This document shows positions 15,672 to 64,000 of a stretch of 64,000 bases of DNA, in pieces. Under the pieces are notes generated by a model. It saw only the letters and a list, made by a program, of their open reading frames with translations. It was not told where the DNA came from and did not search any database. Location of the stretch: assembly GCA_029959295.1 (NCBI GenBank), contig JASCOH010000010.1:1-64000 (forward strand). The letters are read 5' to 3'. Position numbers and translations under genes: made by a program. Source of the stretch: Flavobacteriaceae bacterium PS02334 (GTDB lineage Bacteria; Bacteroidota; Bacteroidia; Flavobacteriales; Flavobacteriaceae). Position 1 is the stretch's first letter, and each line of letters begins with the position of its first letter.

Positions 15672-15781
15672 AATTAATCTATATTAATTTTCCTCATAAA
15701 GTTACGGAAATTGACTGCGATTTGAAAATTTGTGCCTTTAAGTTTTGTTTTATTTAACACTGAATCCATACGAAAGCAAAA

Positions 15782-15812
15782 TTGCCATATTGCAACTTTA
15801 CCCCTATCTTTG
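15782..15812 (+). promoter_or_regulatory. Promoter of mnmE
   Basis: TTG at 15782-15784, a 20-base spacer and TATCTTTG at 15805-15812. It lies 15 bases upstream of the preferred mnmE start and inside the longer open frame, which argues against the upstream start at 15732. Confidence 0.65.
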
Positions 15813-15827
15813 CACAAAATAAAATTT

Positions 15828-17228
15828 ATGGTTTCACAAGACACAATTGTTGCTTTGGCCACGCCTTCAGGAGCTGGAGCAATTGCCATCATAAGGGTTT
15901 CTGGGAAAGATGCGATTTCAATTGCTTCTTCGGTTTTTGATTCGATTTCTAAAAAAGACATTACGAAGCAGAAAACGCATACGATTCATTTGGGGCATAT
16001 TGTGGACGGACCAAAAATTTATGACCAGGTTTTACTTTCGTTATTTAAAGGGCCAAATTCTTATACTGGAGAAAATGTAGTAGAAATTTCTTGCCACGGT
16101 TCAACTTATATCCAACAGCAAATTATTCAATTATTGCTTCGCAAAGGCTGTAAAATGGCCGAACCAGGTGAATTTACACTAAGAGCTTTCATCAACGGAA
16201 AGTTAGATTTGTCGCAAGCGGAAGCTGTTGCAGACCTAATTTCTTCAGAAAACGAAGCTTCTCACCAAATTGCAATGCAACAAATGCGTGGCGGTTTTTC
16301 GAATGAGATTGCCAAACTGCGCGAGGAACTATTGAATTTTGCTTCGCTGATAGAATTGGAATTAGATTTTGCAGAAGAAGATGTGGAATTTGCAGACCGA
16401 AGCCAGTTTAATGACTTATTAGACAGAATTGATTTTGTATTGAAACGATTAATTGATTCTTTTGCCGTAGGAAATGTGATTAAAAACGGAATTCCTGTAG
16501 CAATTGTGGGTGAGCCAAATGTTGGGAAATCTACGCTTTTGAATGCTTTATTGAATGAAGAAAGAGCCATAGTTTCTGAAATTGCCGGAACAACTCGCGA
16601 CACGATTGAAGACGAATTGGTTATCAACGGAATTGGTTTCAGATTCATCGACACCGCGGGAATTCGTGAGACAAAAGATGTTGTGGAAAGCATCGGAATC
16701 AAGAAAACTTTCGAAAAAATTGAACAGGCGCAAGTTGTGGTTTATTTATTAGACAGCAATTTGCAGTTTTCCGAAAATTCAAATAGCTTAAAACAAATTC
16801 AGATAGAAATTGAAAAAATTAAGAATCAATTTCCACTGAAACCATTGATTATAATTGGAAATAAAGCAGATAAGTTAACCGAAAATCAGGTTCAAGCTTT
16901 ACAATCTGAAATTGCGGAAATACTTTTGATTTCTGCTAAAGAGAATCTTAATATTGAAGATTTGAAAAGTAAATTAATGTCTTTTGTCAATACCGGAGCG
17001 CTCCGAAATAATGAAACAATTGTTACTAACACAAGACATTATGATTCTCTAATAAAAGCTTTGGAAGAAATTCAAAAAGTGAAATTTGGAATTGCTACAG
17101 GAATTTCTAGCGATTTAATGGCTATTGATATTCGTCAGGCTTTATATTATTTTGGAGAAATTACGGGCCAGGTTACTAATGATGAATTGCTGGGGAATAT
17201 ATTTGCTAACTTTTGCATCGGCAAATAA
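15828..17228 (+). CDS. mnmE: tRNA modification GTPase MnmE (TrmE)
   Basis: A 466-residue protein that, with MnmG, modifies the wobble uridine of certain tRNAs (cmnm5U type). The start at 15828 gives MVSQDTIVALATPSGAGAIA, the usual N-terminus, and sits just after a promoter. The tetrahydrofolate-binding N-domain runs to about residue 120. A helical domain follows, with an inserted G domain (GEPNVGKSTLLNALL, the IAGTTRDT loop, DTAGIR, and IIGNKADK). The C-terminus is the farnesylation-like CIGK that carries the catalytic cysteine. The gene is complete and marks the last core-like gene before the composition change. Confidence 0.95.
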   Translation: MVSQDTIVALATPSGAGAIAIIRVSGKDAISIASSVFDSISKKDITKQKTHTIHLGHIVDGPKIYDQVLLSLFKGPNSYTGENVVEISCHGSTYIQQQIIQLLLRKGCKMAEPGEFTLRAFINGKLDLSQAEAVADLISSENEASHQIAMQQMRGGFSNEIAKLREELLNFASLIELELDFAEEDVEFADRSQFNDLLDRIDFVLKRLIDSFAVGNVIKNGIPVAIVGEPNVGKSTLLNALLNEERAIVSEIAGTTRDTIEDELVINGIGFRFIDTAGIRETKDVVESIGIKKTFEKIEQAQVVVYLLDSNLQFSENSNSLKQIQIEIEKIKNQFPLKPLIIIGNKADKLTENQVQALQSEIAEILLISAKENLNIEDLKSKLMSFVNTGALRNNETIVTNTRHYDSLIKALEEIQKVKFGIATGISSDLMAIDIRQALYYFGEITGQVTNDELLGNIFANFCIGK

Positions 17229-17259
17229 GCTTCACAAAACATCGCAAACCAAAACAAAG

Positions 17260-17306
17260 AATCCCAGTTAAAATGTCTTAAAATGGCATTTTGACTGGGA
17301 TTTTTC
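17260..17306 (+). terminator. Terminator of mnmE
   Basis: The arms AATCCCAGTTAAAATG (17260-17275) and CATTTTGACTGGGATT (17287-17302) pair almost fully over 16 bases, with a T-rich tail. Confidence 0.85.
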
Positions 17307-17350
17307 TTTCTGCTTATTTACTTTTATTTGCAGATAGTTTGTCCTTTTTT

Positions 17351-17450
17351 GTACCATAATTGTACCACGAAAAATAAACTCCGATCTGGGATTTTTTTTG
17401 GCGAGATTATGACACAATGAGACACACATAGACACGATGGGACGCAAAAT
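17351..17450. repeat. Clustered direct repeats at the island end (possible recombinase/excisionase binding sites)
   Basis: Two GTACCA copies 11 bases apart (17351 and 17362) are followed by four tandem 10-base units starting at 17411, 17421, 17431 and 17441. These begin GACACA, GACACA, GACACG and GACGCA. One unit per helical turn would place all sites on one face of the DNA, as expected for a cooperatively bound protein. They lie between mnmE and the HTH/integrase genes. Binding is inferred. Confidence 0.5.
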
Positions 17451-17460
17451 TAGCCATATT

Positions 17461-18024
17461 ATGAGTTCTAACATTGAGGTTACCAGAATCTGCGAGCACT
17501 GCAAAAAACAGTTCACGGCCAGGACGACGCGCACGCGATATTGCTCGCACATTTGCAACAGCAGGGGCTACAAAGCGCTGGCACGCAAGGGAAAGGTAGA
17601 AAAAAGCAATCAGGAAACGGTCCTGCTCCTGAACACGGACCTGGAAAAAATCAAGCCTCTGGAGTTTCTTAAAATCACCCAGGCGAGCCTTCTTTTCGGA
17701 ATCAGCAGGAGCACCATCTACAGGTTAGTTAACAGAGGGCAACTGGACATCGGCAAGTTCGGGAAGCGGACAGTTCTTCGAAGGTGCGACCTGGAGGCTT
17801 TCTTTGCCATTCCCGTACAGGAATTAAGCCTCAAGACCGGCCAGCAGTTTCCGGGATTTGACAACTGCTACACGATAACGGAAATCCAGCAGAAGTACAA
17901 TATTTCCTCGGGAGCGCTCTATCTGCTGATCCAGAGGCAGGGCATCGTCAAATATTCCGTCGGGAGGTTCACCTGCGTGGCCAAGCAGGACATCGATATA
18001 ATTTTTAATGCCGGGAGAAGATGA
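17461..18024 (+). CDS. Zinc-ribbon/helix-turn-helix protein, excisionase-like
   Basis: A 187-residue protein (195 if the upstream ATG at 17437 is used). An N-terminal cysteine cluster (CEHCKKQF, then RYCSHICNSRG) looks like a small zinc-binding finger. Two winged-helix units of the HTH_17/excisionase type follow: LKITQASLLFGISRSTIYRL with VNRGQLDIGKFGKRTVLR, and YTITEIQQKYNISSGALYLL. It overlaps the start of the integrase gene by four bases, so the two are coupled. This neighbour pair suggests control of excision or integration. GC content is visibly higher than in mnmE. Confidence 0.75.
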   Translation: MSSNIEVTRICEHCKKQFTARTTRTRYCSHICNSRGYKALARKGKVEKSNQETVLLLNTDLEKIKPLEFLKITQASLLFGISRSTIYRLVNRGQLDIGKFGKRTVLRRCDLEAFFAIPVQELSLKTGQQFPGFDNCYTITEIQQKYNISSGALYLLIQRQGIVKYSVGRFTCVAKQDIDIIFNAGRR

Positions 18025-19160
18025 AAAAAACGAATGTTACGCTTAGAAAAAGGACCCTGCCAAGCGGAAAGATCTCGCTGTATCTTGATTTCTTTCCTGC
18101 GGTCTACAATCCCAAAACTAGTGGTTTTTCCCGCAGGGAATATTTGGGATTGTATCTGTTTGCAAAGCCTAAGAACAGTACTGAAAAAGCAATCAATTCA
18201 GAAAACCTGCATAAGGCTGAAATTATCTGCTCCAATAGGTTCAACGAAATGAACAAACAGCAAATTTATACTGCATTCGAGCTGGAACGCATCCATCTAA
18301 AGGAGATTGGTGAAAAGTCATTTATTCAGTTTCTGAAGCAGGCCGCAGGAACCAAGGATGGAAACAACGCTGACATTTGGAAATATGCCATCATTCATTT
18401 TGAAAAGTTTTTAAGAAACGAGGATCTTTTGATGCAAGACATCGATTTGACGGTCATGGAAGATTTCAGGGAATATCTTCTCAAAGCGAGATGCCTGAGA
18501 AAAAAAGGCCGATTTTTGGCACAGAACACAGCGCTCTCCTACTTCAATAAGATCAAGGCGACCTTGAGAAAGGCCTACAAAAAAGGCTATCTCCAAAAAG
18601 ATGTCAACGCAGCAGTGGAAAACATCAAGGAACTGGAATCACAAAGAAATTTCCTGACCATGGAAGAAGCCAGGCGCCTTTATGATACCCCTTGCAAAAA
18701 AGAAACTGTGAGACGTGCCAGCTTTTTTTCCCTGCTGACTGGCATGCGCTACTCGGATATCGCAAAGCTGACATGGGACGAATTACAGCACAGTGGTGAA
18801 GGATATTATATAAGGTTCACTCAGCAGAAAACCGATAGGCCCGTAACCCTCCCAATCGCTGATGAGGCAGCGGAATTGCTTGGCACTAAAACCGCGTCGC
18901 AGGGTAAGATCTTCCATGACTTGAAAAAATGGGATGTAGACCGCCTGCTGCCAATATGGATAAGGGATGCAAACATTGACAAACATATTACTTTCCACTG
19001 TTTCCGCCATACATACGCCACCTTGCAGATGGCATCGGGCACTGATATCTTTACGGTATCTAAAATGCTGGGACACAAAAACATTAAGACCACCCAAATA
19101 TATACAAAAATTATCGATGAGAAAAAAAGGGAAACAACCAATAAAATTTCGTTTAAATAA
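18021..19160 (+). CDS. Tyrosine recombinase / site-specific integrase
   Basis: A 379-residue phage-type integrase. The N-terminal half contains the SAM-like core-binding domain (FIQFLKQAAGTKDGNNADIW onward). The catalytic half shows the residues in order: arginine in LLTGMRYSDIAKL, lysine in QQKTDRPVTLPI, HxxR in ITFHCFRHTYATL, and the second histidine with nucleophile tyrosine in MLGHKNIKTTQIYTKI. The set is complete, so the enzyme should be active. Position and partner suggest it mobilised the island that starts after mnmE. Confidence 0.92.
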   Translation: MKKTNVTLRKRTLPSGKISLYLDFFPAVYNPKTSGFSRREYLGLYLFAKPKNSTEKAINSENLHKAEIICSNRFNEMNKQQIYTAFELERIHLKEIGEKSFIQFLKQAAGTKDGNNADIWKYAIIHFEKFLRNEDLLMQDIDLTVMEDFREYLLKARCLRKKGRFLAQNTALSYFNKIKATLRKAYKKGYLQKDVNAAVENIKELESQRNFLTMEEARRLYDTPCKKETVRRASFFSLLTGMRYSDIAKLTWDELQHSGEGYYIRFTQQKTDRPVTLPIADEAAELLGTKTASQGKIFHDLKKWDVDRLLPIWIRDANIDKHITFHCFRHTYATLQMASGTDIFTVSKMLGHKNIKTTQIYTKIIDEKKRETTNKISFK

Positions 19161-28454: not shown

Positions 28455-29599
28455 GCCCACAACGTCAACTTAGATTTCTCCTTCGTGCGCCGCCGGCTGG
28501 CCCAGGAAGGCTGCAAGTGGGCACCCAGGAAGCTCTGCACGGTGCGTGCGGCGCGCAAGATTCGCCCGGGGCTTCCCTCCTACAGCCTGGGCAATCTCTG
28601 CCGCTCGCTCGACATCCCGCTGGAAAACCGCCACCGTAGGGAGGCGATGCGGATGCAACCGCCCTCCTGTTCTCCAAATTGATGGAATGGGACACCGAAG
28701 GCGAAATCGAGAAGATGGCCAAGAAGACCGTACCCGACCAGCGCCTGCCGCCCCACCTGCCGCCGGAAGATTTCGAGCGCCTTCCTGAAAAGCCAGGGGT
28801 CTATTATTTCTACAACCAGGATAAGAGGGCCATCTACGTGGGCAAGGCCGTCAAAATCAGAAAGCGGGTCGCCTCCCGCTTCAGCAGGAACAGCACCACC
28901 TCCCAGCGCCATAATTTCTTGAAGGACATCCACGGGATCTCCTTTGACGAATGCGCCACGGAGCTCATGGCCCTGCTGCTGGAATGTTCCGAGATCCAGA
29001 AGCTCTGGCCCAAATACAACCGGGCGCTCAAGGGTTTCGAGCCCAAGTTCGGCCTCTACAGCTATGAGGCCAGAAACGGCTATAAGTACCTGGCGGTAGG
29101 AAAGCTTCCCAAGTTCCAGTCCTGCGTGCAGGCCTACGACCGGGAGCACGAGGGCATCGACGCCCTGAAGGAAATCGCCCAAAAATTCGCCATCGACCCC
29201 CGCTTCTGCTGCTGCGGCAGGCCCCAACCGGGGGAATTCACGCCCCAGCAGAACACAGTACCCTTACCTGAAATCGGCGTGCACAACGCCCGCATCGGGG
29301 AAGCCCTCGCCCGGATCAAGGAAGGAAAGGAAAGCTACGCCTACCTAGATAAGGGACGGCACACCGAGGAACGGAGCTGCATCTATGTGGAAAACGACGC
29401 CTTCTGCGGCATGGGCTACTTTCCCTCAGGCCTCCTGATAGCGGACCTGTCCGAACTGAAGGAATACATCGAACCGTGCAAAAGCACCCACTATGCCATG
29501 AAGCTGGTCGGGAGCTTCGCGCCGCGGCATCCCGGAAAAATAAAGCCTGTCAAAAAAAGGGAAGCTGCCGCTGCGCACCGCTTTGAACCTAATGGATAA
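28455..29599 (+). pseudogene. Decayed exonuclease / GIY-YIG nuclease gene (paralogue of the gene at 63104)
   Basis: Homology to the gene at 63104 begins abruptly at AHNVNLDFSFVRRRL; the first ~80 residues, including the DIETTG motif, are missing. The frame breaks near 28640 at the ExoIII motif, where RHR should continue as GGDADATA: one base is lost. After that the reading continues intact from about 28679 with PGVYYFYNQDKRAIYVGKA (GIY-YIG) to the end of the paralogue. The intact half could in principle be made from the ATG at 28679. The GC content is high. The DUF1810 gene follows 33 bases later. Confidence 0.8.
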
Positions 29600-29632
29600 A
29601 AAGCTATTTTTACAAACAAAATACCAAGAAAA

Positions 29633-30070
29633 ATGTATACCGTCAAAGGACTCCCCCGCTTCCTCGAAGCCCAGAACCAGACCTACCTGAAAGCGCTTGC
29701 AGAAATAAGATCAGGAGAAAAAACCTCCCACTGGATGTGGTACGTCTTTCCCCAGCTCAAAGGCCTGGGAAGAAGCGACATGGCGCAATTTTACGGAATT
29801 GAAAACCTGAAAGAAGCCGAAGACTACCTTGCCCACCCGGTACTGGGAAAACATCTTGCAGAAATTTCGGAAGCCCTGCTGCGGATAGAAGGGAAATCTG
29901 CCAATGACATCCTGGGCAGCCCCGACGACCTGAAGCTGCAATCCTCTATGACACTTTTCAGCGCCGCGTCCCATTCCAGTTCCGTTTTCCAGGAAGTGCT
30001 CGACAGGTACTTCGGAGGCCAGCCCGACAGCCGCACCCTGTCACTGCTCGCAAAGCTTCCCAGCAGCTAG
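29633..30070 (+). CDS. DUF1810 family protein, copy 1
   Basis: A 145-residue DUF1810 protein. It has the family segments LPRFLEAQNQTYLKALAEI, SHWMWYVFPQLKGLGRSD, HPVLGKHLAEISEALLRIEG and SPDDLKLQSSMTLF. It is similar along its length to the copy at 61979 (shared MWY, HPVLG, SPDDLK blocks). The function of the family is unknown. It directly follows the decayed exonuclease/GIY-YIG gene, and its relative lies in the same neighbourhood of the intact cassette. Confidence 0.85.
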   Translation: MYTVKGLPRFLEAQNQTYLKALAEIRSGEKTSHWMWYVFPQLKGLGRSDMAQFYGIENLKEAEDYLAHPVLGKHLAEISEALLRIEGKSANDILGSPDDLKLQSSMTLFSAASHSSSVFQEVLDRYFGGQPDSRTLSLLAKLPSS

Positions 30071-55645: not shown

Positions 55646-56140
55646 ATGCCATCAGAAAAAGTCAGGGCATGCGCAAAGGCCATTGCCGAAAAAGAGTGGA
55701 AAATTGCATTTGTGGAAAGTGCCACCGCAGGCCGGATGTGCTCTGAATTTTCGCTGACCGAAAATTCAGGAGATATACTGCGCGGGGGCATATCCTGCTA
55801 CGAAGTATTCATAAAGGAAAACATCCTCAAGGTCCCGCATGAGCTGATTGAAAAGCATACTCCTGAATCTGCAGCAGTTACCGAATCGCTTGCGCAAAAC
55901 GCCCTGCCGCTATTCAAGTCAGAAATTGTTGTGGCCGTTACAGGGCTTGTGGCTCCCGGAGGAAGCGAGACGCCTGAAAAGCCTGTAGGGACAATGTTTC
56001 TCCATATCATGATGGCCGGCAGGGCTCTTTCCCACAGGGAAGTCTTCAAGGGAAAGCCTGAGGATATAGTGCTGCAGGCGATCGACAGGGCTGCAGGACT
56101 GATTACAGGCGCTCTGGAAAAATCAGGACTATCTATATAA
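55646..56140 (+). CDS. CinA family protein (nicotinamide-nucleotide amidase domain)
   Basis: A 164-residue single-domain CinA/PncC-type protein. It has AFVESATAGRMCSEFSLTEN, RGGISCYEVFIKENILKVP, AVTGLVAPGGSETPEKPVG and IVLQAIDRAAGLI, the family set with the conserved serine and threonine. The domain deamidates NMN to NaMN. It starts 15 bases after the DUF6766 stop, so it is probably in the same operon. Confidence 0.85.
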   Translation: MPSEKVRACAKAIAEKEWKIAFVESATAGRMCSEFSLTENSGDILRGGISCYEVFIKENILKVPHELIEKHTPESAAVTESLAQNALPLFKSEIVVAVTGLVAPGGSETPEKPVGTMFLHIMMAGRALSHREVFKGKPEDIVLQAIDRAAGLITGALEKSGLSI

Positions 56141-56166
56141 TTCAATAATAATTAAACACAGCAATC

Positions 56167-56760
56167 ATGGCAAACCAGAAAGACCAAAGAAGTGACGGCA
56201 GGGGACAGCGAATCGTCCCGCCGAAATCGGCCGCGGCCGAAGGGCTCAGAGAATTATTTATCGATGAGCTGAAAGACATCGTATATGCGGAACGCGCGCT
56301 GGTAAAGGCGCTTCCAAAAATGGCAAACAATGCATTTGATCCCGGCCTGAAGGCATCGATTGAAGAACACGTGGCAGTGACCGAGGGCCAGGTGGCACGC
56401 CTTGTACAGGTTTTTGAAATCCTGGGCGAATCAGACAGGGGCAAAAAATGCGATGCGATGGAAGGCCTTATCAAGGAAGGAGAAAGCATCCTGGAAGAAA
56501 CCGAACCGGGACCGGTAAGGGATGCCGGTATCATTTCTGCATCGCAGAAAATCGAGCATTACGAAATTGCATCCTACGGCACGCTGGCAGCATTCGCCAA
56601 GATACTTGGAGAAAATGAAGTTGCGGCGCTTCTGGAAGAGACGCTCGCTGAAGAAAAAGAAGCCGACCTCAAGCTCACCGATGCGGCCTACAACGGCATC
56701 AATCTCGAAGCCGCTGGTGGAGCCGCTGCAGATTCGCCTGATTCCGGCGCAATTTTATAA
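56167..56760 (+). CDS. Ferritin-like DUF892 (YciE/YciF-type) protein
   Basis: A 197-residue four-helix protein of the DUF892 family. It starts with a basic tail, then GLRELFIDELKDIVYAERAL, ASIEEHVAVTEGQVARL, KIEHYEIASYGTLAAFAKIL and LLEETLAEEKEADLKL. The glutamate/histidine pairs (E and EHY) are the likely di-iron site. It is the last gene of the 54.3-56.8 kb unit. A small fragment of a second copy survives at 49202. Confidence 0.85.
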   Translation: MANQKDQRSDGRGQRIVPPKSAAAEGLRELFIDELKDIVYAERALVKALPKMANNAFDPGLKASIEEHVAVTEGQVARLVQVFEILGESDRGKKCDAMEGLIKEGESILEETEPGPVRDAGIISASQKIEHYEIASYGTLAAFAKILGENEVAALLEETLAEEKEADLKLTDAAYNGINLEAAGGAAADSPDSGAIL

Positions 56761-56829: not shown

Positions 56830-57603
56830 TTAGGAAACTTTTTCCTTTATTTCCATAAGGTCCTGCTGCAGTTTTCGGATGACCGCATCCAAAGGCTGCA
56901 ATTCTTCAGCGTTCTGCTTGAAGACACCCCTTTCAATGCTGCCGCTGTACTCCCAGACCTCGGCAATTTCGGAAACCTTCACATCATAGGGAGCATAAAA
57001 GCTGTTATCCGACTGGAGCTCAATATCATTGTTCTTTTTCCGGCGCAGCCGCTTATAGACCATTTCCCTGTTTTTGGTAATGACGATGTAGGTGCGGCCG
57101 CTGACAATGTCGCCAAGCTTTTCGATGTACCGCCCGACGATCGAAGAATCGCTGTTGTGCGGCGGCATGGAATCCCCGTCTATGGGAAATACGCGGTACT
57201 TCTCGTTTTTGCCCAGCCAGGGGAGCGAAATATGGTCCAGCTCGGAAATGAACCTGAAATCGGCATACCCGCCAGCAGAATAGCCGGCCTTAGCCTTGTG
57301 GGTCACGACTTCGATCAGGTTGCTTCCGTCCCTATCGACGACTATCGGCATCAGTATCCTGTTGCTGTCCAATTTTAACAGCTGTTCCGTCTTGATCTTG
57401 CTGAGATCTACGGTCAGCAGCAGCTCCATGCTGATCGCATAGAACCTAGAAATCACCAGCAGCGATTCGGCAGGAGGCGTATTTTTTCCATATTCGTACT
57501 TCTTGTACTGGTCAAGGCCAAATTTCATCGCATCGGCGGCCTGCAGCTGCGAGAGCTTCCTTTTGCTCCTAAGGTACTTGAGATTGTCAGAAATATACAA
57601 CAT
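56830..57603 (-). CDS. S24-type self-cleaving repressor (XRE-HTH plus peptidase, LexA-like)
   Basis: A 257-residue protein. An XRE-type HTH occupies residues 1-65 (LRSKRKLSQLQAADAM). The S24 peptidase half has a cleavage-site-like Ala106-Gly107 in KAKAGYSAGGYA, the nucleophile Ser145 in IDGDSMPP, and Lys184 in MVYKRLR, 39 residues later. These are the spacings of LexA/CI-type autoproteolysis. It would repress the divergent polymerase gene and be inactivated on DNA damage. Its promoter lies inside a candidate operator. Confidence 0.88.
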   Translation of the reverse strand: MLYISDNLKYLRSKRKLSQLQAADAMKFGLDQYKKYEYGKNTPPAESLLVISRFYAISMELLLTVDLSKIKTEQLLKLDSNRILMPIVVDRDGSNLIEVVTHKAKAGYSAGGYADFRFISELDHISLPWLGKNEKYRVFPIDGDSMPPHNSDSSIVGRYIEKLGDIVSGRTYIVITKNREMVYKRLRRKKNNDIELQSDNSFYAPYDVKVSEIAEVWEYSGSIERGVFKQNAEELQPLDAVIRKLQQDLMEIKEKVS

Positions 57604-57620
57604 GTGTTAAAGGGATTTTT

Positions 57621-57667
57621 AATCACTACAAAAATAATAATTAAAGTGATTTAACGTCCTAATTTTG
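57621..57667. promoter_or_regulatory. Divergent promoter region with inverted repeat, probable repressor operator
   Basis: AATCACT (57621-57627) and AGTGATT (57645-57651) form an inverted repeat with a 17-base gap. The -7 box for the repressor gene (minus strand TATTTTTG, plus positions 57629-57636) lies between the arms. The -7 box for the polymerase gene (TAATTTTG, 57660-57667) lies just right of them. A repressor bound to the arms could block both. I did not find strong TTG boxes for either direction. Confidence 0.55.
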
Positions 57668-57701
57668 TAGAAATATATTCCAAACCCAAACTTATAAATT
57701 A

Positions 57702-58862
57702 ATGGAACGCGCTATCGTACATATGGACCTGGACACCTTTTTTGTTTCCTGCGCCCGGCTGCAGAACTCGGAACTGAACGGAATCCCCCTGATAGTCGGC
57801 GGGGGCGAACGCGGCGTGGTCGCTTCCTGTTCCTACGAGGCCAGGTATTTCGGGGTGCGGGCGGCAATGCCGATCAAGATGGCGCTCCAGCTGTGCCCGC
57901 AGGCCAAGGTAATAAAAGGCGATATGGAACTTTTTTCCAACAAGTCGCATGAAGTCACGCAGATTATCGAAGAACGCGCACCCGTGGTCGAAAAAGCAAG
58001 CATTGATGAGTTTTACCTGGATATCACGGGCATGGACAAATTCTACGGCTGTTATAAGTTTACCGAAGAACTGACTGCAAAAATCACAAAGGAAACCGGG
58101 CTTCCCATAAGCTTTGCGCTTTCCGTAAACAAGACCGTTTCCAAGATCGGGACTGGAGAAGGAAAACCCAAAGGAAACCTGGAAATTCCAGAAGCCATGG
58201 TACAGCCTTTCCTCAACCCTTTGTCCATAAGAAAGATTCCGATGGTGGGCGAAGTCACCTTCAACCTGCTCTCCAGGATCGGGATACGGAATATCCAGAC
58301 GCTGTCCGAAATGCCCCAGCCCTACCTGCAGAAGCTGCTGGGAAAAAACGGGCTGGACCTATGGAAAAAGGCAAACGGCATCGACAATAATCCGGTGGAA
58401 CCCTACACGGAAAGAAAATCAATCTCGACGGAAAATACCTTCGACCAGGACACCTTTGACATCCGCATGCTGAAATTCGTGCTGATCGGGATGGTCGAAA
58501 AACTGGCCTACCAGCTCCGTTCCGAGCAGTGGCTCACGTCAACGGTAGTGGTAAAGATCAGGTACAATAATTTCGATACCGAAACCAGGCAGTGCCAGAT
58601 TCCCTATGCCTCCTGCGACCACGTCCTGATAAAATATGTTTTGGAACTGTTTGAAAAGCTGTACCAGAGACGGATGCGCATCCGCCTGGTCGGGATCCGC
58701 TTCAGCGGATTGGTCCGGGGCGACTACCAGATCAACCTATTTGAGGACACCGTAGAAATGCTCTCGCTCTACCAGGCCATGGACAGGATCAAGAACCGCT
58801 TCGGCTATGATGCCGTGGCGCGTTGCGCCGGAGCGGACCTGAAAAAAAAACCTACCTCCTAA
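57702..58862 (+). CDS. Y-family DNA polymerase (DinB/UmuC type)
   Basis: A 386-residue translesion polymerase. The first catalytic aspartates are in IVHMDLDTFFVSCARL (residues 9 and 11), and the second group in KASIDEFYLDITG. The fingers and thumb continue to a C-terminal little-finger domain (STENTFDQDTFDIRMLKFV to VGIRFSGLV). The length is complete. It is controlled from the divergent promoter shared with the repressor. The DnaE2-type gene follows 37 bases later. Confidence 0.92.
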   Translation: MERAIVHMDLDTFFVSCARLQNSELNGIPLIVGGGERGVVASCSYEARYFGVRAAMPIKMALQLCPQAKVIKGDMELFSNKSHEVTQIIEERAPVVEKASIDEFYLDITGMDKFYGCYKFTEELTAKITKETGLPISFALSVNKTVSKIGTGEGKPKGNLEIPEAMVQPFLNPLSIRKIPMVGEVTFNLLSRIGIRNIQTLSEMPQPYLQKLLGKNGLDLWKKANGIDNNPVEPYTERKSISTENTFDQDTFDIRMLKFVLIGMVEKLAYQLRSEQWLTSTVVVKIRYNNFDTETRQCQIPYASCDHVLIKYVLELFEKLYQRRMRIRLVGIRFSGLVRGDYQINLFEDTVEMLSLYQAMDRIKNRFGYDAVARCAGADLKKKPTS

Positions 58863-58899
58863 CCGTAAGCCATTTACCTGATACCCTAAACCCAAAAAA

Positions 58900-61800
58900 A
58901 TGTACCTCAACTGCCATTCCTTCCATTCCCTCCGTTACGGCACCATTCCCTTGCAGGACCTGGTATCGGACGCCGCGGCATGCGGCGCGAGGGCTATGGC
59001 CCTGACCGACATCACTACCGTGACGGGAATTTACGAATTTATAAAAGCCTGCAAGAAAGAACAGGTAAAACCTCTGGTGGGCATTGAGTTCCGTTCGCAG
59101 GGCAGGCTGCAGTACATTGGCTTGGCGAAGGATAAAAACGGCCTGGCAGAAATGAACCGCCTGGTAACCAAACACAATTTTGAAAATATTCCGTATGAAG
59201 ACAGCGCGCCTGATTTCAGCGGAGCATTTGTCATCTATCCCATGGAAAATGCACCGGACCGGTTAAGGGAACACGAGTACATCGGCATCCGCCCGGAACA
59301 GCTGGCCATGCTTTTCAGCAGGGATTGGAAAAGGCGCATGCATAAAATGGCAGTGCTCCAGCCCGTCACCATCCGCAATAACAAAGAGTTCGCCCTGCAC
59401 AAGATATTGCGCGCCATAGACCTGAATATTTTAGGTTCCAAGCTTCGGGAAGACCAGCGGTGCCGGCCTTCGGAAAGGATGATGCCGCTAAAAGAATTGC
59501 TAGAGAGTTTCAGCAGCTATCCCGAAATCATTCAGAACACCCAGCACATAATCGATCAGTGCAATTTTGAGTACGAGTTTGGCATCCCCAGAAACAAAAA
59601 ACATTTTACCAAAAACCGCAGCACCGACCTGGAACTGCTGGCACAACTGGCAGAAGAAGGGATGGCTTTCCGTTATGGCCATGACAATGAGGAAGCAAAA
59701 GCCAGGGTCAAAAAAGAACTGAAGGTCATCGACGAATTGGGATTCAGCGGCTATTTCCTGATTTCTTGGGATATTGTGCGCTACAGCATGAGCCGGGGCT
59801 TCCTGCACATCGGTCGCGGCAGCGGTGCCAACTCCATTATTGCCTACTGCCTGAGAATAACGGACATCTGCCCGCTGGAACTCGACCTCTATTTCGAGCG
59901 CTTCCTGAACCTGAACCGCAAGACCCCTCCCGATTTCGACATCGACTGGTCGTGGAAGGAGCGCGACACGATGCTGGAATATATCTTTGGAAAATACGGA
60001 AAAGACCACGTTGCCTTCTGCGGCACCAACGTCGAGTTCAAGTACCGCTCCATCTTCCGCGAAGTAGGCAAGGTTTTCGGACTGTCAAAGGAGGAACTTG
60101 ATGCCCTGGCAAAAAACCCGATGGCAAGGCACGACACTAATGCTGTAGTCAAAATGGTACAGCAGTACGGCATGATGCTGGAAAAACACCCCAACCAGCG
60201 CAGCATGCATTCCTGCGGCATCCTGATTTCTGAAGAGCCGATTACCAACTTTACGGCCTTGGAAATGCCTCCCAAAGGTTTCCCTATTGTACAGTTTGAC
60301 ATGCACGTGGCAGAGGATATCGGCTTTGACAAGTTCGACATCCTGAGCCAGCGGGGCATCGGGCATATTGACGACAGCGTAAAGCTGATACGGAAAAATC
60401 AGGGCATCGACGTAGACATACGCGACACGGCAATTTCCAAGGATGAGCCAAAATGCAACGAGCTTTTGAGCCAGGGAAATACCATCGGATGCTTCTACAT
60501 CGAGAGCCCTGCCATGCGGGGACTGCTGCGAAGGCTGCAATGCGACAATTTCAAGGTATTGGTTGCCGCCTCCTCTATCATCCGTCCCGGCGTGGCACAG
60601 TCGGGCATGATGAAGGAATACATTTTCAGGCACAATTACCCCGACCGGTTTGACTATTTTCATGAAGTCTTTAAAGAACAGCTGGGCGAAACCTACGGAA
60701 TCATGGTCTACCAGGAAGACGTGATCAAGATAGCCCTGCACTATGCGGGCGTCCCCGCATCTGACGGCGACATACTGCGCCGTGCCATGAGCGGGAAAGG
60801 ACGCTCCAAGGAAGCGCTGCAGCGCGTAAAGGATAACTTTTTTGCCTGCTGCAGGGAAAAAGGCCACCCGCTGCAATTGAGCCAGGAAATCTACAGGCAG
60901 ATCGAATCCTTTGCGGGCTATTCGTTCTGCAAGGCGCATTCGGCTTCTTATGCCGTGGAAAGTTACCAGAGCCTATATCTTAAGACCTATTATCCATTGG
61001 AGTTCATGACGGCCGTGATCAACAATTTCGGGGGCTTCTACCGTACCGAGGTGTACGTGCACGAGGCAAGGATGTCCGGTGCCAGGATCCACAACCCTTG
61101 CGTAAACAGGAGCAGTTGCGAGACTGTCATCTATGGAAAAAATATCTACCTTGGCTTCCAGCACCTGAAAAGCCTGGAATCCAAACTGGCGCAGGCCATC
61201 GCAGCGGAGCGGGAAGCCTCGGGGGATTTCAGCTGCCTGGAAGACTTCATCAGCAGGGTTCCCATCGGCATAGAAGGCATACAGACCCTGATCTTTATCG
61301 GGGCCTTCCGCTTCACGGGCAGGACCAAGAACGAGCTGCTGGTCATGGCGCGCATGCTCCTGGTCAATTTCAAGCCGGAAAACCGCAACCCGGTGCTGCT
61401 GCAGGAACCTGTTAAAGAATACAGGCTTCCGGTGCTGCCGCGCTCCGCCTTCGAGGATGCCTTTGACGAGATCGAGCTGCTGGACTTTCCGGTTTCGGTC
61501 ACGCCCTTCAACCTGCTCCAGACCCCTTTCCGCGGCGACGTGATGGCCAAGGATCTGGAAAGGCACCACAAAAAGACGGTCCGGATGCTGGCCTACCTGA
61601 TCTCCAGGAAGCACGTCCCCACCAAGATGGGCGATATGTTTTTCGGGACCTGGATCGATGCGGAAGGGCAGTTTTTCGATACGGCGCATTTTGCCGGCTG
61701 CCTCAAGAAATATCCTTTCCAGGGAGGCGGCTGCTACCTGCTGCTGGGGCACGTGGAAGTGGACTACCACTTCCCTACCATTACCGTATCAAAGATGGCG

Positions 61801-61956
61801 AAGATGCCTTTCATTCCTGATCCCAGATATTCTGATACGGATGAGAAGCGATTCCAGACGCAGCAGCAGATACGGGAGGACGTCAGCATGACCCAGCGCC
61901 AGCCCTATCCGCAGGAACACGAGATCAATATTCCAAGACATAAAATGAAAATTTAA
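58900..61956 (+). CDS. DNA polymerase III alpha-subunit homologue, DnaE2/ImuC type
   Basis: A 1018-residue C-family polymerase, shorter than the replicative DnaE of this phylum. The PHP domain starts MYLNCHSFHSLRYGT, but the motif usually LTDH reads LTDITT, so one metal ligand is lost and the domain is probably inactive. The polymerase aspartates are present: PPDFDIDW (Asp347, Asp349) and KFDILSQRG (Asp480). The ending (TITVSKMAKMPFIPDPRYS) is short and lacks the extra C-terminal domains. Such enzymes copy damaged DNA with a Y-family partner. Confidence 0.9.
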   Translation: MYLNCHSFHSLRYGTIPLQDLVSDAAACGARAMALTDITTVTGIYEFIKACKKEQVKPLVGIEFRSQGRLQYIGLAKDKNGLAEMNRLVTKHNFENIPYEDSAPDFSGAFVIYPMENAPDRLREHEYIGIRPEQLAMLFSRDWKRRMHKMAVLQPVTIRNNKEFALHKILRAIDLNILGSKLREDQRCRPSERMMPLKELLESFSSYPEIIQNTQHIIDQCNFEYEFGIPRNKKHFTKNRSTDLELLAQLAEEGMAFRYGHDNEEAKARVKKELKVIDELGFSGYFLISWDIVRYSMSRGFLHIGRGSGANSIIAYCLRITDICPLELDLYFERFLNLNRKTPPDFDIDWSWKERDTMLEYIFGKYGKDHVAFCGTNVEFKYRSIFREVGKVFGLSKEELDALAKNPMARHDTNAVVKMVQQYGMMLEKHPNQRSMHSCGILISEEPITNFTALEMPPKGFPIVQFDMHVAEDIGFDKFDILSQRGIGHIDDSVKLIRKNQGIDVDIRDTAISKDEPKCNELLSQGNTIGCFYIESPAMRGLLRRLQCDNFKVLVAASSIIRPGVAQSGMMKEYIFRHNYPDRFDYFHEVFKEQLGETYGIMVYQEDVIKIALHYAGVPASDGDILRRAMSGKGRSKEALQRVKDNFFACCREKGHPLQLSQEIYRQIESFAGYSFCKAHSASYAVESYQSLYLKTYYPLEFMTAVINNFGGFYRTEVYVHEARMSGARIHNPCVNRSSCETVIYGKNIYLGFQHLKSLESKLAQAIAAEREASGDFSCLEDFISRVPIGIEGIQTLIFIGAFRFTGRTKNELLVMARMLLVNFKPENRNPVLLQEPVKEYRLPVLPRSAFEDAFDEIELLDFPVSVTPFNLLQTPFRGDVMAKDLERHHKKTVRMLAYLISRKHVPTKMGDMFFGTWIDAEGQFFDTAHFAGCLKKYPFQGGGCYLLLGHVEVDYHFPTITVSKMAKMPFIPDPRYSDTDEKRFQTQQQIREDVSMTQRQPYPQEHEINIPRHKMKI

Positions 61957-61978
61957 TTCCCTAATTTTAAAAGAAAAA

Positions 61979-62413
61979 ATGGACGCAATTTATGACCTGA
62001 CTAGATTTTTAGAAGCACAGAACCACTCCTGCCTAAAGGCATTGGCAGAAATTAAAAACGGTAAAAAGGAAACCCACTGGATGTGGTACCTATTCCCGCA
62101 TCTGGCAGGATTGGAAAAAAGCGATACGGCAAGATATTATGCGATTGCAGATCGGGATGAAGCGCATGCCTATCTCTCGCATCCTGTCCTGGGCAGGCAC
62201 CTGGCAGAAATCAGCAATGCATTGATGGAAATTGATGGAAAATCGGCTTTGGAAATATTCGGAAGCCCTGATGACCTGAAATTGAAATCCAGCATGACCT
62301 TGTTTGCATCCCTTGAAAATACGGACAGCATTTTTCAAAAAGTACTGGAGAAATATTACGACGGAGAAACAGACGGTACTACCCTAAAGCTGATAGATCA
62401 AAAAGAGCCATGA
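61979..62413 (+). CDS. DUF1810 family protein, copy 2
   Basis: A 144-residue DUF1810 protein with RFLEAQNHSCLKALAEIK, THWMWYLFPHLAGLEKSD, HPVLGRHLAEISNALMEIDG and GSPDDLKLKSSMTLF. It lies 22 bases after the polymerase and overlaps alkB by 4 bases (ATGA), so it is a coupled member of the operon. Its biochemical role is unknown. A close relative is at 29633. Confidence 0.88.
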   Translation: MDAIYDLTRFLEAQNHSCLKALAEIKNGKKETHWMWYLFPHLAGLEKSDTARYYAIADRDEAHAYLSHPVLGRHLAEISNALMEIDGKSALEIFGSPDDLKLKSSMTLFASLENTDSIFQKVLEKYYDGETDGTTLKLIDQKEP

Positions 62414-63030
62414 TGCTGTTTGAAGACACAGAACTGTTTGCATCCGGAAACAGGGGCAAAAAAGTATTTGATCTTCCCGATGCGGAAGTAATGCTGATCG
62501 ACAATTTCTTTACCAAGCAGGAATCTGATTTTTATTACAGGGAACTTCTGGAGGGAACGGATTGGAGCGAATACGAAATGGAAATCTTTGATAAGACGGT
62601 AACGGTACCCCGCCTGGTATCTTGGCATGAAGAAGATAATAAGCAAGACGGCCTAGATAACATTCCCAAATGGAATCCGCATCTATTGGATATAAGGAAG
62701 AGGGTTGAAAACGAGACAGCGCTGCGGTTCAATGCGGTGCTCCTCAACCTTTACCGCAACGGAAAGGACGGCGTGGCTTGGCACAGCGACCGGACACACA
62801 GGTCGGGAAAGGATCCCATAATCGCATCGGTCAGTTTCGGAGAAACCAGGATGTTCAGCCTGCGCCACAAATTTAGGAAAGAGCAGCCGCAGGTAGACAT
62901 TCCCCTTTATCATGGATCATTTCTGCTGATGGCAGGAACGACCAACAGCTTCTGGCAGCACCAGGTTCCCAAGACCGCAAAAAACATACTGCCGAGGATC
63001 AATCTTACCTTCAGGATGGTCCTGCAATAA
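62410..63030 (+). CDS. alkB: AlkB-type 2-oxoglutarate/Fe(II) dioxygenase
   Basis: A 206-residue enzyme that removes alkyl groups from DNA or RNA bases by oxidation. The iron ligands are in WHSDRTHRSG (His and Asp) and FWQHQVPKT (His), and the 2-oxoglutarate arginines are in PRINLTFRM. VSFGETRMFSLRHK and YHGSFLLMAG complete the fold. It overlaps the DUF1810 gene by 4 bases and precedes the exonuclease gene by 73 bases. Confidence 0.92.
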   Translation: MMLFEDTELFASGNRGKKVFDLPDAEVMLIDNFFTKQESDFYYRELLEGTDWSEYEMEIFDKTVTVPRLVSWHEEDNKQDGLDNIPKWNPHLLDIRKRVENETALRFNAVLLNLYRNGKDGVAWHSDRTHRSGKDPIIASVSFGETRMFSLRHKFRKEQPQVDIPLYHGSFLLMAGTTNSFWQHQVPKTAKNILPRINLTFRMVLQ

Positions 63031-63103
63031 ATGCAGCCTTGAAAGAGACAGAAAAACGGTAAAACAAACGAGCAATAAGAGCGTACCGATAACGTTAATA
63101 CAG

Positions 63104-64000
63104 ATGATGAAAAAGATGGAATATGCAATCGTAGATATTGAGACCACGGGAGGAAATGCGATGCACAGCCGTATCACGGAAATAGCCATACGCATACATG
63201 ACGGAACCGAAGTGATTGACAGCTATGAAACGCTGGTCAATCCCCAGAAGGAAATTCCGGATGCCATATTTGCCCTTACGGGCATAACAAATGAAATGGT
63301 CAGGGAGGCTCCCATTTTTGACGAGATAGCAGAAAAGGTCATGGAAATGCTTGCCGGCCGGATCTTTGTCGCGCACAATGTGAATTTCGACTACTCTTTT
63401 GTGCGCCACCAGCTCAAAGAATCAGGCTTTGACTGGTCTGCCAAAAAATTATGCACTGTCCGTGCTTCAAGAAAGATAAGGCCGGGATTCCCGTCCTACA
63501 GCCTGGGAAGGCTTTGCGCCAGCTTGGACATACCCCTGAATAACAGGCACCGTGCCGGCGGCGATGCCGATGCCACGGCAATATTGTTTTCGCGCCTGCT
63601 GGAATGGGATCTGGAAGGTGAAATGGGAAAGATGCTCAAAAATAATGCGCAGGACCAGCGTCTGCCTCCCAACCTCCCTCCTGAAGATTTTGCAAGCCTG
63701 CCGGAAACGCCTGGCGTCTATTATTTTCACGACAGGGAAAAAAAAGTGATTTATGTCGGCAAGGCGGTCAACATCAAAAAACGCGTGGCATCGCATTTCA
63801 CGGGCAACAATATCAGTTCCCAAAGGCAGAATTTCCTGCGGGATATCCATTCGATTTCCTTTGAAGCCTGCGCTACAGAATTTATGGCGCTGCTTTTAGA
63901 ATGCACGGAGATAAAAAAGCTATGGCCTGAATACAATAGGGCACTGAAGCGTTATGAGCCAAAATTCGGGCTTTATGAGTACGAGGCACGAAATGGCTAC
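63104..64000 (+). CDS. Exonuclease (DnaQ-like) fused to GIY-YIG nuclease, runs off the window
   Basis: Translation from ATG 63104 gives MMKKMEYAIVDIETTGGNAM. The N-terminal DEDD exonuclease has DIETTG, HNVNFDYSF and HRAGGDADATAILF, the full ExoI-III set. After a short linker comes the GIY-YIG domain (PGVYYFHDREKKVIYVGKAV), the UvrC-type fold. This architecture resembles the proofreading epsilon/UvrC fusions known as Cho- or DnaQ-UvrC-like proteins. It is truncated by the edge; by comparison with 28455-29599 about 180-200 more residues are expected. It belongs to the damage-response operon. Confidence 0.9.
   Translation, partial: MMKKMEYAIVDIETTGGNAMHSRITEIAIRIHDGTEVIDSYETLVNPQKEIPDAIFALTGITNEMVREAPIFDEIAEKVMEMLAGRIFVAHNVNFDYSFVRHQLKESGFDWSAKKLCTVRASRKIRPGFPSYSLGRLCASLDIPLNNRHRAGGDADATAILFSRLLEWDLEGEMGKMLKNNAQDQRLPPNLPPEDFASLPETPGVYYFHDREKKVIYVGKAVNIKKRVASHFTGNNISSQRQNFLRDIHSISFEACATEFMALLLECTEIKKLWPEYNRALKRYEPKFGLYEYEARNGY

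Follow-up and report, generated by a model that had tools for sequence, protein, structure and literature searches.

At the right end of the 64,000-nucleotide stretch of Flavobacteriaceae bacterium PS02334 DNA analysed here (the window), a repressor gene stands divergent from five co-directional genes that are predicted to form a self-contained SOS operon, in which bypass polymerases and repair cargo would be placed under one self-cleaving repressor. From the sequence, and by analogy with characterised systems, we put the probability of this reading at about 0.8. The copying core and its regulation appear to be of kinds already known; the new part appears to be the repair tail, which comprises a DUF1810 protein, an AlkB-type dioxygenase, and an exonuclease/GIY-YIG fusion, and which was not found behind PolY2-DnaE2 in the literature searched. 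This tail looks like SOS-controlled repair cargo rather than a set of obligatory mutasome subunits, since it also stands behind a UmuC-type polymerase and since the repressor elsewhere faces alkB alone. The six open reading frames of the locus sit where they were first placed (56830 onward):

56830..57603, minus strand: CI-like HTH + S24 peptidase repressor, non-canonical LexA-type, 257 aa (Pfam HTH_3 and Peptidase_S24; Ala-Gly, Ser145, Lys184)
57702..58862, plus strand: Y-family polymerase, Bacteroid PolY2-like (Pfam IMS and IMS_C; MDLD, SIDE, and QINLF motifs)
58900..61956, plus strand: DnaE2-type polymerase, 1018 aa (Pfam PHP, DNA_pol3_alpha, finger, and HHH_6; motifs)
61979..62413, plus strand: DUF1810 protein, 144 aa, all-helical (Pfam DUF1810)
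62410..63030, plus strand: AlkB-type 2OG-Fe(II) dioxygenase, operon subtype (Pfam PF13532, 2OG-FeII_Oxy_2, E 4e-30; motifs)
63104..64000, continuing to 64486 past the window, plus strand: DEDDh exonuclease + GIY-YIG (UvrC-type) fusion, 460 aa (Pfam RNase_T and GIY-YIG; motifs)

From polY through dnaE, DUF1810, and alkB to the nuclease, the intergenic gaps are 37, 22, -4 (an ATGA overlap), and 73 bp. The positions and Pfam domains agree with the arrangement given in the original prediction, a repressor divergent from polY-dnaE2-DUF1810-alkB-nuclease with tight spacing and a 4-base overlap. The right end of the operon, which that prediction had marked for checking, lies outside the window: the frame of the fusion runs over the window edge to a stop at 64486, and the operon is taken to end there because the next gene is convergent.

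The repressor carries an Ala-Gly cleavage bond at residues 106-107, repeated at 110-111 (motif reading), and a catalytic pair formed by Ser145 within GDSM and Lys184 within VYKR, with residue roles assigned after the S24 literature; the cleavage site and Ser/Lys pair that had been described as intact are thus both present. Four elements were read between the repressor and polY:

57612..57626, no strand: probable operator 1, GGGATTTTTAATCAC, lying between the repressor start and its -7-like box (pattern search and intergenic comparison)
57629..57636, minus strand: -7-like box of the repressor, TATTTTTG (sequence reading)
57646..57660, no strand: probable operator 2, GTGATTTAACGTCCT, which overlaps the promoter of polY (pattern search and relatives' intergenic regions)
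57660..57667, plus strand: -7-like box of the polymerase operon, TAATTTTG (sequence reading)

The boxes at 57629..57636 and 57660..57667 were matched to TAnnTTTG, which we take to be the consensus, and the TAATTTTG string was found at the equivalent place in many of the relatives compared. That the two palindromes are operators of the divergent promoter, with predicted binding of the repressor, is supported by their covariation across relatives with a single recognition-helix residue. Where this residue is acidic, the third half-site base is G in 8 of 9 loci; where it is not, the base is T in 54 of 54, a rule noticed on the very loci on which it is counted. Such a correspondence between an acidic helix residue and an operator G would amount to a simple specificity rule for a repressor family with drifting operators. 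Over the whole genome, the operator pattern gave 58 strand matches versus 18 for a control pattern read backwards. Among the 20 genome sites examined (of the 58 matches), no second target was found, since none immediately precedes a recognisable repair gene; one match is intragenic, 531 bp ahead of a presumably exonuclease-like gene (L250), and another lies just beyond what we take to be a Tag-like glycosylase gene (L236).

A previous study described a non-canonical LexA family in Bacteroidetes (PMC8565304, 2021). According to the available part of that paper, its members resemble the present repressor in combining a CI-like HTH with an S24 domain, in the Ala-Gly and Ser-Lys residues, and in the palindromes of their own promoter; one member is divergent from a mitomycin-induced error-prone polymerase, and a GIY-YIG exonuclease, COG0847, falls within the regulon. 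The Elizabethkingia anophelis repressor binds TTAC-AAATT-GTAA; mitomycin induces this repressor as well as the error-prone polymerase divergent from it. The operator predicted here, GGGAT-N5-ATCAC (general form GKGAT-N5-RTCMY), differs from the published GGA-N5-TCC in having a spacing of 7 rather than 5, and CTAA-N5-TTAG is likewise unmatched. However, these consensus sites are those of the two main clusters, and diverged dyads such as TTAC-N5-GTAA were accepted as well, so the mismatch does not exclude the present repressor from the family. The terms 'alkB', DUF1810, COG3145, and COG5579 are absent from the main text of the same paper. By homology to these relatives, the operon is probably damage-inducible.

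Both polymerases retain motifs of active enzymes. In PolY, the catalytic motifs MDLD (at 8) and SIDE (at 100) are intact and a QINLF clamp-type motif lies near the C-terminus (at 343); Pfam detects no extra C-terminal domain, and the ImuB-C domain is thus not seen. DnaE2 has the palm motif PDFDIDW, and the positions that we presume to be its PHP ligands are partly substituted, as judged by eye. When the genome was searched with the RecA-family model PF00154, RecA alone passed the cut-off, with four weak matches under it, so the absence of ImuA noted earlier stands at this cut-off. Aligning the PolY C-terminus with the N-terminus of the cell's own RecA for a RecA-NT-like motif gave a local score of 27, a value reached by 140 of 2000 shuffles and therefore not significant by itself.

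The operon thus resembles the ImuA-ImuB-DnaE2 mutasome in pairing an inducible Y-family member (induction here by homology) with DnaE2, but its Y-polymerase is catalytically intact and lacks the ImuB-C domain, and no ImuA was found. The polymerase pair without ImuA is not novel: a PolY2 + DnaE2B module of this kind ("Bacteroid PolY2", Cellulophaga algicola type) is already published for Bacteroidetes (PMC6511836, 2019; PMC12926913, 2026), as is the repressor family. In the accessible portions of those papers, the DnaE2B-PolY-RecA module likewise places DnaE2 behind an intact Y-polymerase, in genomes that lack both ImuA and ImuB, and RecA is the proposed partner; unlike the present operon, it is not described with an AlkB, DUF1810, and exonuclease/GIY-YIG tail.

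The DUF1810 protein matches its profile (PF08837) with 184 bits against a curated cut-off of 25 (E 1e-54). Residues K30, W34, W36, K101, and S104 are invariant. Among known structures it is clearly related only to Rv1873 (PDB 2JEK), itself of the DUF1810 family, and no function for Rv1873 or DUF1810 was found in the literature searched. The AlkB has a complete 2OG-Fe(II) pattern of HxD...H plus Arg (HxD at 125, QHQV at 183, RINLTFR at 196) and stays below the NCBIfam AlkB equivalog cut-offs; its relatives within the genus split into those at least 56% and those at most 49% identical. The DEDDh motifs of the fusion are intact.

If the repressor behaves like its proven relatives, RecA filaments formed on damaged DNA would trigger its self-cleavage and free both promoters. 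PolY2 and the putative DnaE2B, both presumably active, would then bypass lesions, with the cell's single RecA standing in for ImuA. AlkB may reverse N-alkyl base damage, removing a lesion class that such polymerases would otherwise bypass; Pol V and DnaE2/ImuC do act on alkylation lesions, as stated in the part of PMC5261740 available. The fusion may trim or incise damaged DNA. DUF1810 keeps company with AlkB and the nuclease irrespective of the polymerase, and would for that reason be a small helper in the processing of damage, not a subunit of a polymerase. The operon suggests joint induction, from a single promoter, of error-prone bypass and of direct lesion reversal, in a system accessible in environmental Flavobacterium.

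We compared 80 related loci. The repressor is divergent from polY and less than 1 kb away in 64; behind PolY2 follow DnaE2 (78 loci), AlkB (35), DUF1810 (33), the exonuclease fusion (32), XthA (8), and SRAP (7). About one third (26/80) consist of PolY-DnaE2 only, and five more were scored as PolY-only where the chain was stopped by the 350-bp gap rule or a contig end, or where DnaE2 was not found. In Flavobacterium the three tail genes recur after PolY2-DnaE2 in varying order; F. johnsoniae CI04, for example, carries the full set at L103 as repressor, polY, dnaE2, nuclease, alkB, and DUF1810. In a set of 61 genomes from the genus, PolY2 is less than 10 kb away for 12 of the 40 DUF1810 matches (expected 0.2), the 40 including a G155 match of 27% identity with six stops that was excluded from the 17-genome count; of the 20 alkB genes of the operon type, 12 have DUF1810 on the same strand no more than 2 kb away (expected 0.04). 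The PolY2 count of 27 genomes takes in a fragment (G182), a partial copy (G200), and a copy with an in-frame stop (G166).

The tail is not bound to this polymerase pair. In four regions (L226, L251, L252, and L264) it follows a UmuC-type polymerase under a repressor as here, in one case without the exonuclease; UmuD and UmuC were confirmed by Pfam at L226, and the operator pair was read at L226 and L251. In three genomes (L227, L255, L256) alkB is the only gene opposite the repressor, and the operator pair is present there; DUF1810 once adjoins remnants of repressor and AlkB with polymerase absent. In the DUF1810 tree, whose rows were hand-chosen, the "operon" label includes L175 (after a UmuC-type gene) and L155 (those remnants); L166, which has no polymerase nearby (region L254), is not so labelled. 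The core of polymerases, either PolY2-DnaE2 or UmuDC, would be interchangeable under one repressor in Flavobacterium, and so would the repair tail, each acting as a module.

In other families of the phylum, DUF1810 mostly lies away from the genes of this operon: it was near them in 0 of 11 regions, the exception seen being Sphingobacterium pedocola (L147). Of 23 hand-picked regions of alphaproteobacterial plasmids, 6 have DUF1810 beside an imuA-imuB-dnaE2 cassette or what remains of one. We offer, at slightly under even odds, the proposal that DUF1810, whose fold has no clear counterpart in the PDB beyond the family itself, is an unrecognised, widespread part of bacterial SOS mutagenesis loci, that it joined DnaE2 or Pol V cassettes on separate occasions in Bacteroidota and in Alphaproteobacteria, and that together with AlkB and the DEDDh/GIY-YIG nuclease it makes up a lesion-processing module that does not depend on the polymerase and is plugged in behind whichever mutagenic one the operon has. 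Its recurrence in such clusters appears to be new, and would give the family, for which a crystal structure has existed since 2007, its first functional context, DNA damage. Accessory families such as SRAP/DUF159 and ImuB-C were recognised in the same way, by recurrent linkage to mutagenic operons (Aravind 2013, PMC3765255), and SRAP is also met in our loci; DUF1810 is not named in the available part of that paper.

It is unlikely that DUF1810 and AlkB are loosely linked passengers swept along on genomic islands, with no role in the damage response. The operon does lie within a stretch of shifted GC content, where a tyrosine integrase adjoins mnmE, and many DUF1810 sites are unrelated to repair (28 of the 40 matches in the genus are not near PolY2, and 17 of the 23 plasmid regions have no DnaE2-cassette sequence). 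Against this stand the close same-strand linkage in several gene orders and with different polymerases, the alkB genes directly under the operator pair, and the DnaE2 linkage in a second phylum. Slightly less probable is that the fusion proofreads for DnaE2 or PolY2. Its intact DEDDh motifs, the substituted PHP ligands, and the homology to a proofreading subunit remarked in PMC8565304, as far as that text was available, would fit, but the exonuclease is joined to a UvrC-type nuclease and follows PolY in fewer than half of the loci, as well as a UmuC-type polymerase. Least likely is the distinct mutasome of the original prediction, in which DUF1810, and perhaps the nuclease, would be PolY2-DnaE2 subunits in ImuA's role: this would suit the lack of an ImuA-like match, the position of DUF1810 directly after dnaE2 in this operon as well as in 5 of 80 loci, and its place beside imuA-imuB-dnaE2 on plasmids, yet the tail genes are far less constant than DnaE2 and occur with another polymerase or none, DUF1810 coexists with ImuA on those plasmids and so is not its replacement there, and the published models, in the parts available, have RecA replace ImuA. 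The damage-inducible, ImuA-less operon joined by repair genes is what we retain of that prediction, induction being by homology.

SOS-controlled repair cargo remains the preferred reading of the tail, and a second copy of two of its genes, which the original prediction did not mention, lies elsewhere in the window:

28455..29599, plus strand: second exonuclease/GIY-YIG copy, exonuclease half broken
29633..30070, plus strand: intact second DUF1810, sharing 58-59% identity with the operon copy, after the broken nuclease copy

The operon at the right end of the window consists of one minus-strand repressor gene and five co-directional plus-strand genes, listed here with their Pfam domains.

56830-57603, minus strand: repressor gene (HTH_3 and Peptidase_S24)
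57702-58862, plus strand: Y-polymerase gene, PolY (IMS and IMS_C)
58900-61956, plus strand: DnaE gene (PHP, DNA_pol3_alpha, finger and HHH_6)
61979-62413, plus strand: DUF1810 gene (DUF1810)
62410-63030, plus strand: AlkB gene (2OG-FeII_Oxy_2)
63104-64486, plus strand: nuclease gene, an exonuclease/GIY-YIG fusion (RNase_T and GIY-YIG)

The plus-strand genes are separated by 37, 22, -4 and 73 bp, in that order. The nuclease gene (460 aa) extends 486 bases beyond the window; the next gene is convergent, which settles the right end of the operon. Catalytic motifs are intact in PolY (MDLD at 8, SIDE at 100, with QINLF close to the C-terminal end); DnaE retains the palm motif PDFDIDW, AlkB its HxD, distal His and Arg, and the nuclease both its DEDDh and GIY-YIG motifs. 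By eye, several residues that we take to be PHP metal ligands in DnaE1 are missing from this DnaE. A RecA-family search of the genome returned a single RecA and nothing else over the cut-off, in agreement with the original prediction that ImuA is absent. The genome's five Y-family members are DinB, the operon PolY and three UmuC-type proteins, each of the last encoded next to a UmuD-like S24 gene (contigs C3, C66 and C7), making a large set of error-prone polymerases. A further AlkB of the operon subtype (58%) lies on contig C33 (L230, 9924-10547), with no repressor or polymerase of the operon kind within the 20 kb fetched. Since most of its nearest named relatives are Flavobacterium, the genome was assigned to that genus.

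The available parts of two earlier papers already describe an ImuA-less pair of operon-type Y-polymerase (PolY2) and DnaE2 (2019, PMC6511836; 2026, PMC12926913), and those of a third describe the repressor family, with a GIY-YIG exonuclease within its regulon (2021, PMC8565304); the available main text of the latter does not mention AlkB or DUF1810. The core is thus ordinary and the regulatory frame published; what differs is the recurrent repair tail (DUF1810, AlkB and nuclease), which is apparently unreported; the DUF1810 association is what merits follow-up. Pol V and DnaE2/ImuC have both been tied to alkylation lesions, as far as the accessible text of a 2017 paper goes (PMC5261740), which fits a pairing with AlkB.

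Gene orders were called by script, with gaps of up to 350 bp allowed, in 80 named loci, the best 80 of 577 by PolY similarity; this set is non-random and repeats some genomes, and in 73 of the loci the sequence reaches 8 kb or more rightwards from the PolY start. The repressor is divergent from PolY in 64 loci. Behind PolY stand DnaE2 (78 loci), AlkB (35), DUF1810 (33), nuclease (32), XthA (8) and SRAP (7). Of the full orders, PolY-DnaE2-nuclease-(XthA)-AlkB-DUF1810 is the most frequent (25/80), and the tail order of the window, DUF1810-AlkB-nuclease, occurs in none of the 80.

Other gene orders behind PolY (loci of 80)
PolY-DnaE2 only: 26
PolY-DnaE2-SRAP: 6
PolY-DnaE2-DUF1810: 5
PolY-DnaE2-AlkB: 5
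PolY only: 5
PolY-DnaE2-nuclease: 4
PolY-DnaE2-AlkB-DUF1810: 2
PolY-DnaE2-nuclease-AlkB: 2

The tail often ends, after DUF1810, with a protein of 133-134 aa (16/80 loci; family CL13, as also in L226, L263, L264 and L265) that looks membrane-like by eye and had no match in a Pfam search. In Sphingobacterium arenae (L146), PolY occurs twice at a distance of 7.3 kb, each copy preceded by a repressor-like start and followed by DnaE2 sequence, so that the module is present as a tandem copy.

Across 61 genomes of the genus, 12 of 40 DUF1810 matches lie within 10 kb of PolY2, where genome sizes predict 0.2; 10 of the 12 share its strand, and the remaining 28 of the 40 are situated elsewhere. Operon-type AlkB lies within 2 kb of DUF1810 in 12 of 20 cases (0.04 expected), always on the same strand. 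PolY2 is present in 27 genomes (incomplete or interrupted in three), DUF1810 in 17 and both in 14 (Fisher p = 4e-4, ignoring kinship and genome size). DUF1810 is rare in the family (5/149 genomes, that of the window counted) and in a sample of the phylum (23/296).

The 98-bp divergent region contains two palindromes: GGGATTTTTAATCAC (57612-57626), between a -7-like box of the repressor and the repressor start, and GTGATTTAACGTCCT (57646-57660), which overlaps the polymerase promoter. For the window and those 62 of the 80 loci whose repressor matches over nearly its full length (n = 63), operator 1 was compared with the recognition-helix residue that precedes Arg/Gln (x-D/G-R-Y-x-K-Y-E). Nine loci have an acidic residue there (8 Asp, 1 Glu), and eight of these carry G at the third position of the half-site (GGGAT, GTGAT, GGGAC or AGGAA, the last taken from intergenic comparison in L081, where the rule-based search found no site); the exception is the Glu locus L091 (GGTAA). 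Where the residue is Gly, Ala, Ser or Val, the third base is T in all 54 loci (GTTAY, GATAY, GCTAT or GTTCC). The data that suggested the rule are the ones on which it is scored here, and kinship among the loci means that they do not represent 63 independent events; the acidic residues are spread over several repressor types (window/L075/L089/L093; L081/L091; L126/L130; L154). Another set of 44 loci, otherwise read by eye only, contains one acidic repressor (L255), with operator GGGATAATTCGTCAC. This covariation of helix residue and operator base supports the palindromes as real operators. A published relative of the repressor in Elizabethkingia anophelis binds TTAC-AAATT-GTAA (PMC8565304), and TTAC-N5-GTAA also forms the core of a site in several Flavobacterium loci examined. 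In the genome, GKGAT-N5-RTCMY has 58 strand matches vs 18 for the pattern read backwards; no other target turned up, as none of the 20 sites fetched immediately precedes a recognisable repair gene.

The original prediction had AlkB, DUF1810 and the nuclease take part in what may be a distinct version of the mutasome, a view against which several of 40 hand-chosen regions around genes for DUF1810 or operon-type AlkB speak. Four genomes (L226, L251, L252 and L264) have, opposite the repressor, a UmuC-type polymerase 20-21% identical to PolY, followed by nuclease (absent in L252), AlkB and DUF1810; UmuD and UmuC were confirmed by Pfam in L226, to which the umuD profile check was limited. The repressor faces alkB alone in L227, L255 and L256, and in L229 remnants of repressor and AlkB adjoin DUF1810. 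As judged from these gene arrangements, the tail is independent of polymerase type, and the swappable core is the main argument for reading it as repair cargo rather than as part of a mutasome. A candidate operator pair can be read in L226, L227, L251, L255 and L256, so there the repressor probably acts on alkB and umuD directly.

DUF1810 appears to have become linked, or relinked, on more than one occasion. A tree of 51 sequences, 16 of them operon copies, requires seven label changes, at least three of which are forced by well-supported branches; its bootstrap had not settled, and support values are rough. A single clade for all 16 operon copies was rejected (p-AU 5e-6). Fifteen fall in one supported clade (95/94), alongside copies located elsewhere. 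The copy of genome G173 falls in another (98/92); it follows PolY-DnaE2-nuclease in the same orientation, separated from them by two unknown genes (L169). CinA-type and DUF892 genes stand near the repressor in both the window (55646-56760) and G173 (L269, 12896-14161); part of the left flank is therefore common to the two.

Outside the genus, repressor and nuclease adjoin DUF1810 in one of three regions from other genera of the family (L225); linkage was found in none of 11 DUF1810 regions from Bacteroidota outside the family, and Sphingobacterium pedocola (L147) carries PolY-DnaE2-DUF1810. Plasmid records with DUF1810 number 254. From these, 23 regions were hand-picked (11 of 30 evenly stepped, and 12 of 40 best matches to a sphingomonad copy), and ImuA/ImuB/DnaE2 sequence lies within 6 kb of DUF1810 in six of them, three among the 11 evenly stepped.

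Plasmid regions with ImuA/ImuB/DnaE2 sequence near DUF1810
Agrobacterium rubi: ImuA/ImuB/DnaE2 sequence; exonuclease gene two genes before DUF1810
A. larrymoorei: fragmented imuA/imuB
Sphingomonas paucimobilis: SRAP-DUF1810-ImuA/ImuB-DnaE2
Sphingobium yanoikuyae: cassette sequence, divergent
Sphingopyxis DBS4: DnaE2 fragments only
Sphingobium indicum: DnaE2 fragments only

In DNA searches, the SRAP-DUF1810-ImuA/B block was found in five records with at least 80% coverage and the Agrobacterium block in four, each count including the query's own. Because such plasmids often carry imuABC cassettes and the count has no random-gene control, this linkage is suggestive. On an Allochromatium vinosum plasmid (L304, 5989-6886), a gene annotated as GIY-YIG nuclease (Pfam DUF123) overlaps DUF1810 by 14 bases.

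The operon seems to lie on an island integrated at the 3' end of mnmE (15732-17228), because integration genes, presumably an excisionase-like gene and a tyrosine recombinase, follow mnmE (region 15732-19160) and GC climbs past it from 36-37% to mostly 40-51%, as far as about 78 kb of the contig. A search for a border repeat of at least 14 bases found none. At 28455-30070, 27 kb from the operon, a second exonuclease/GIY-YIG copy with a broken exonuclease half precedes an intact DUF1810 gene, a second or decaying tail. Towards the contig end (88.8-99.8 kb; L271, 13904-19916, and L272) stand defence-looking genes, which we take to be SIR2-like, HerA-like, DUF262-like and AAA.
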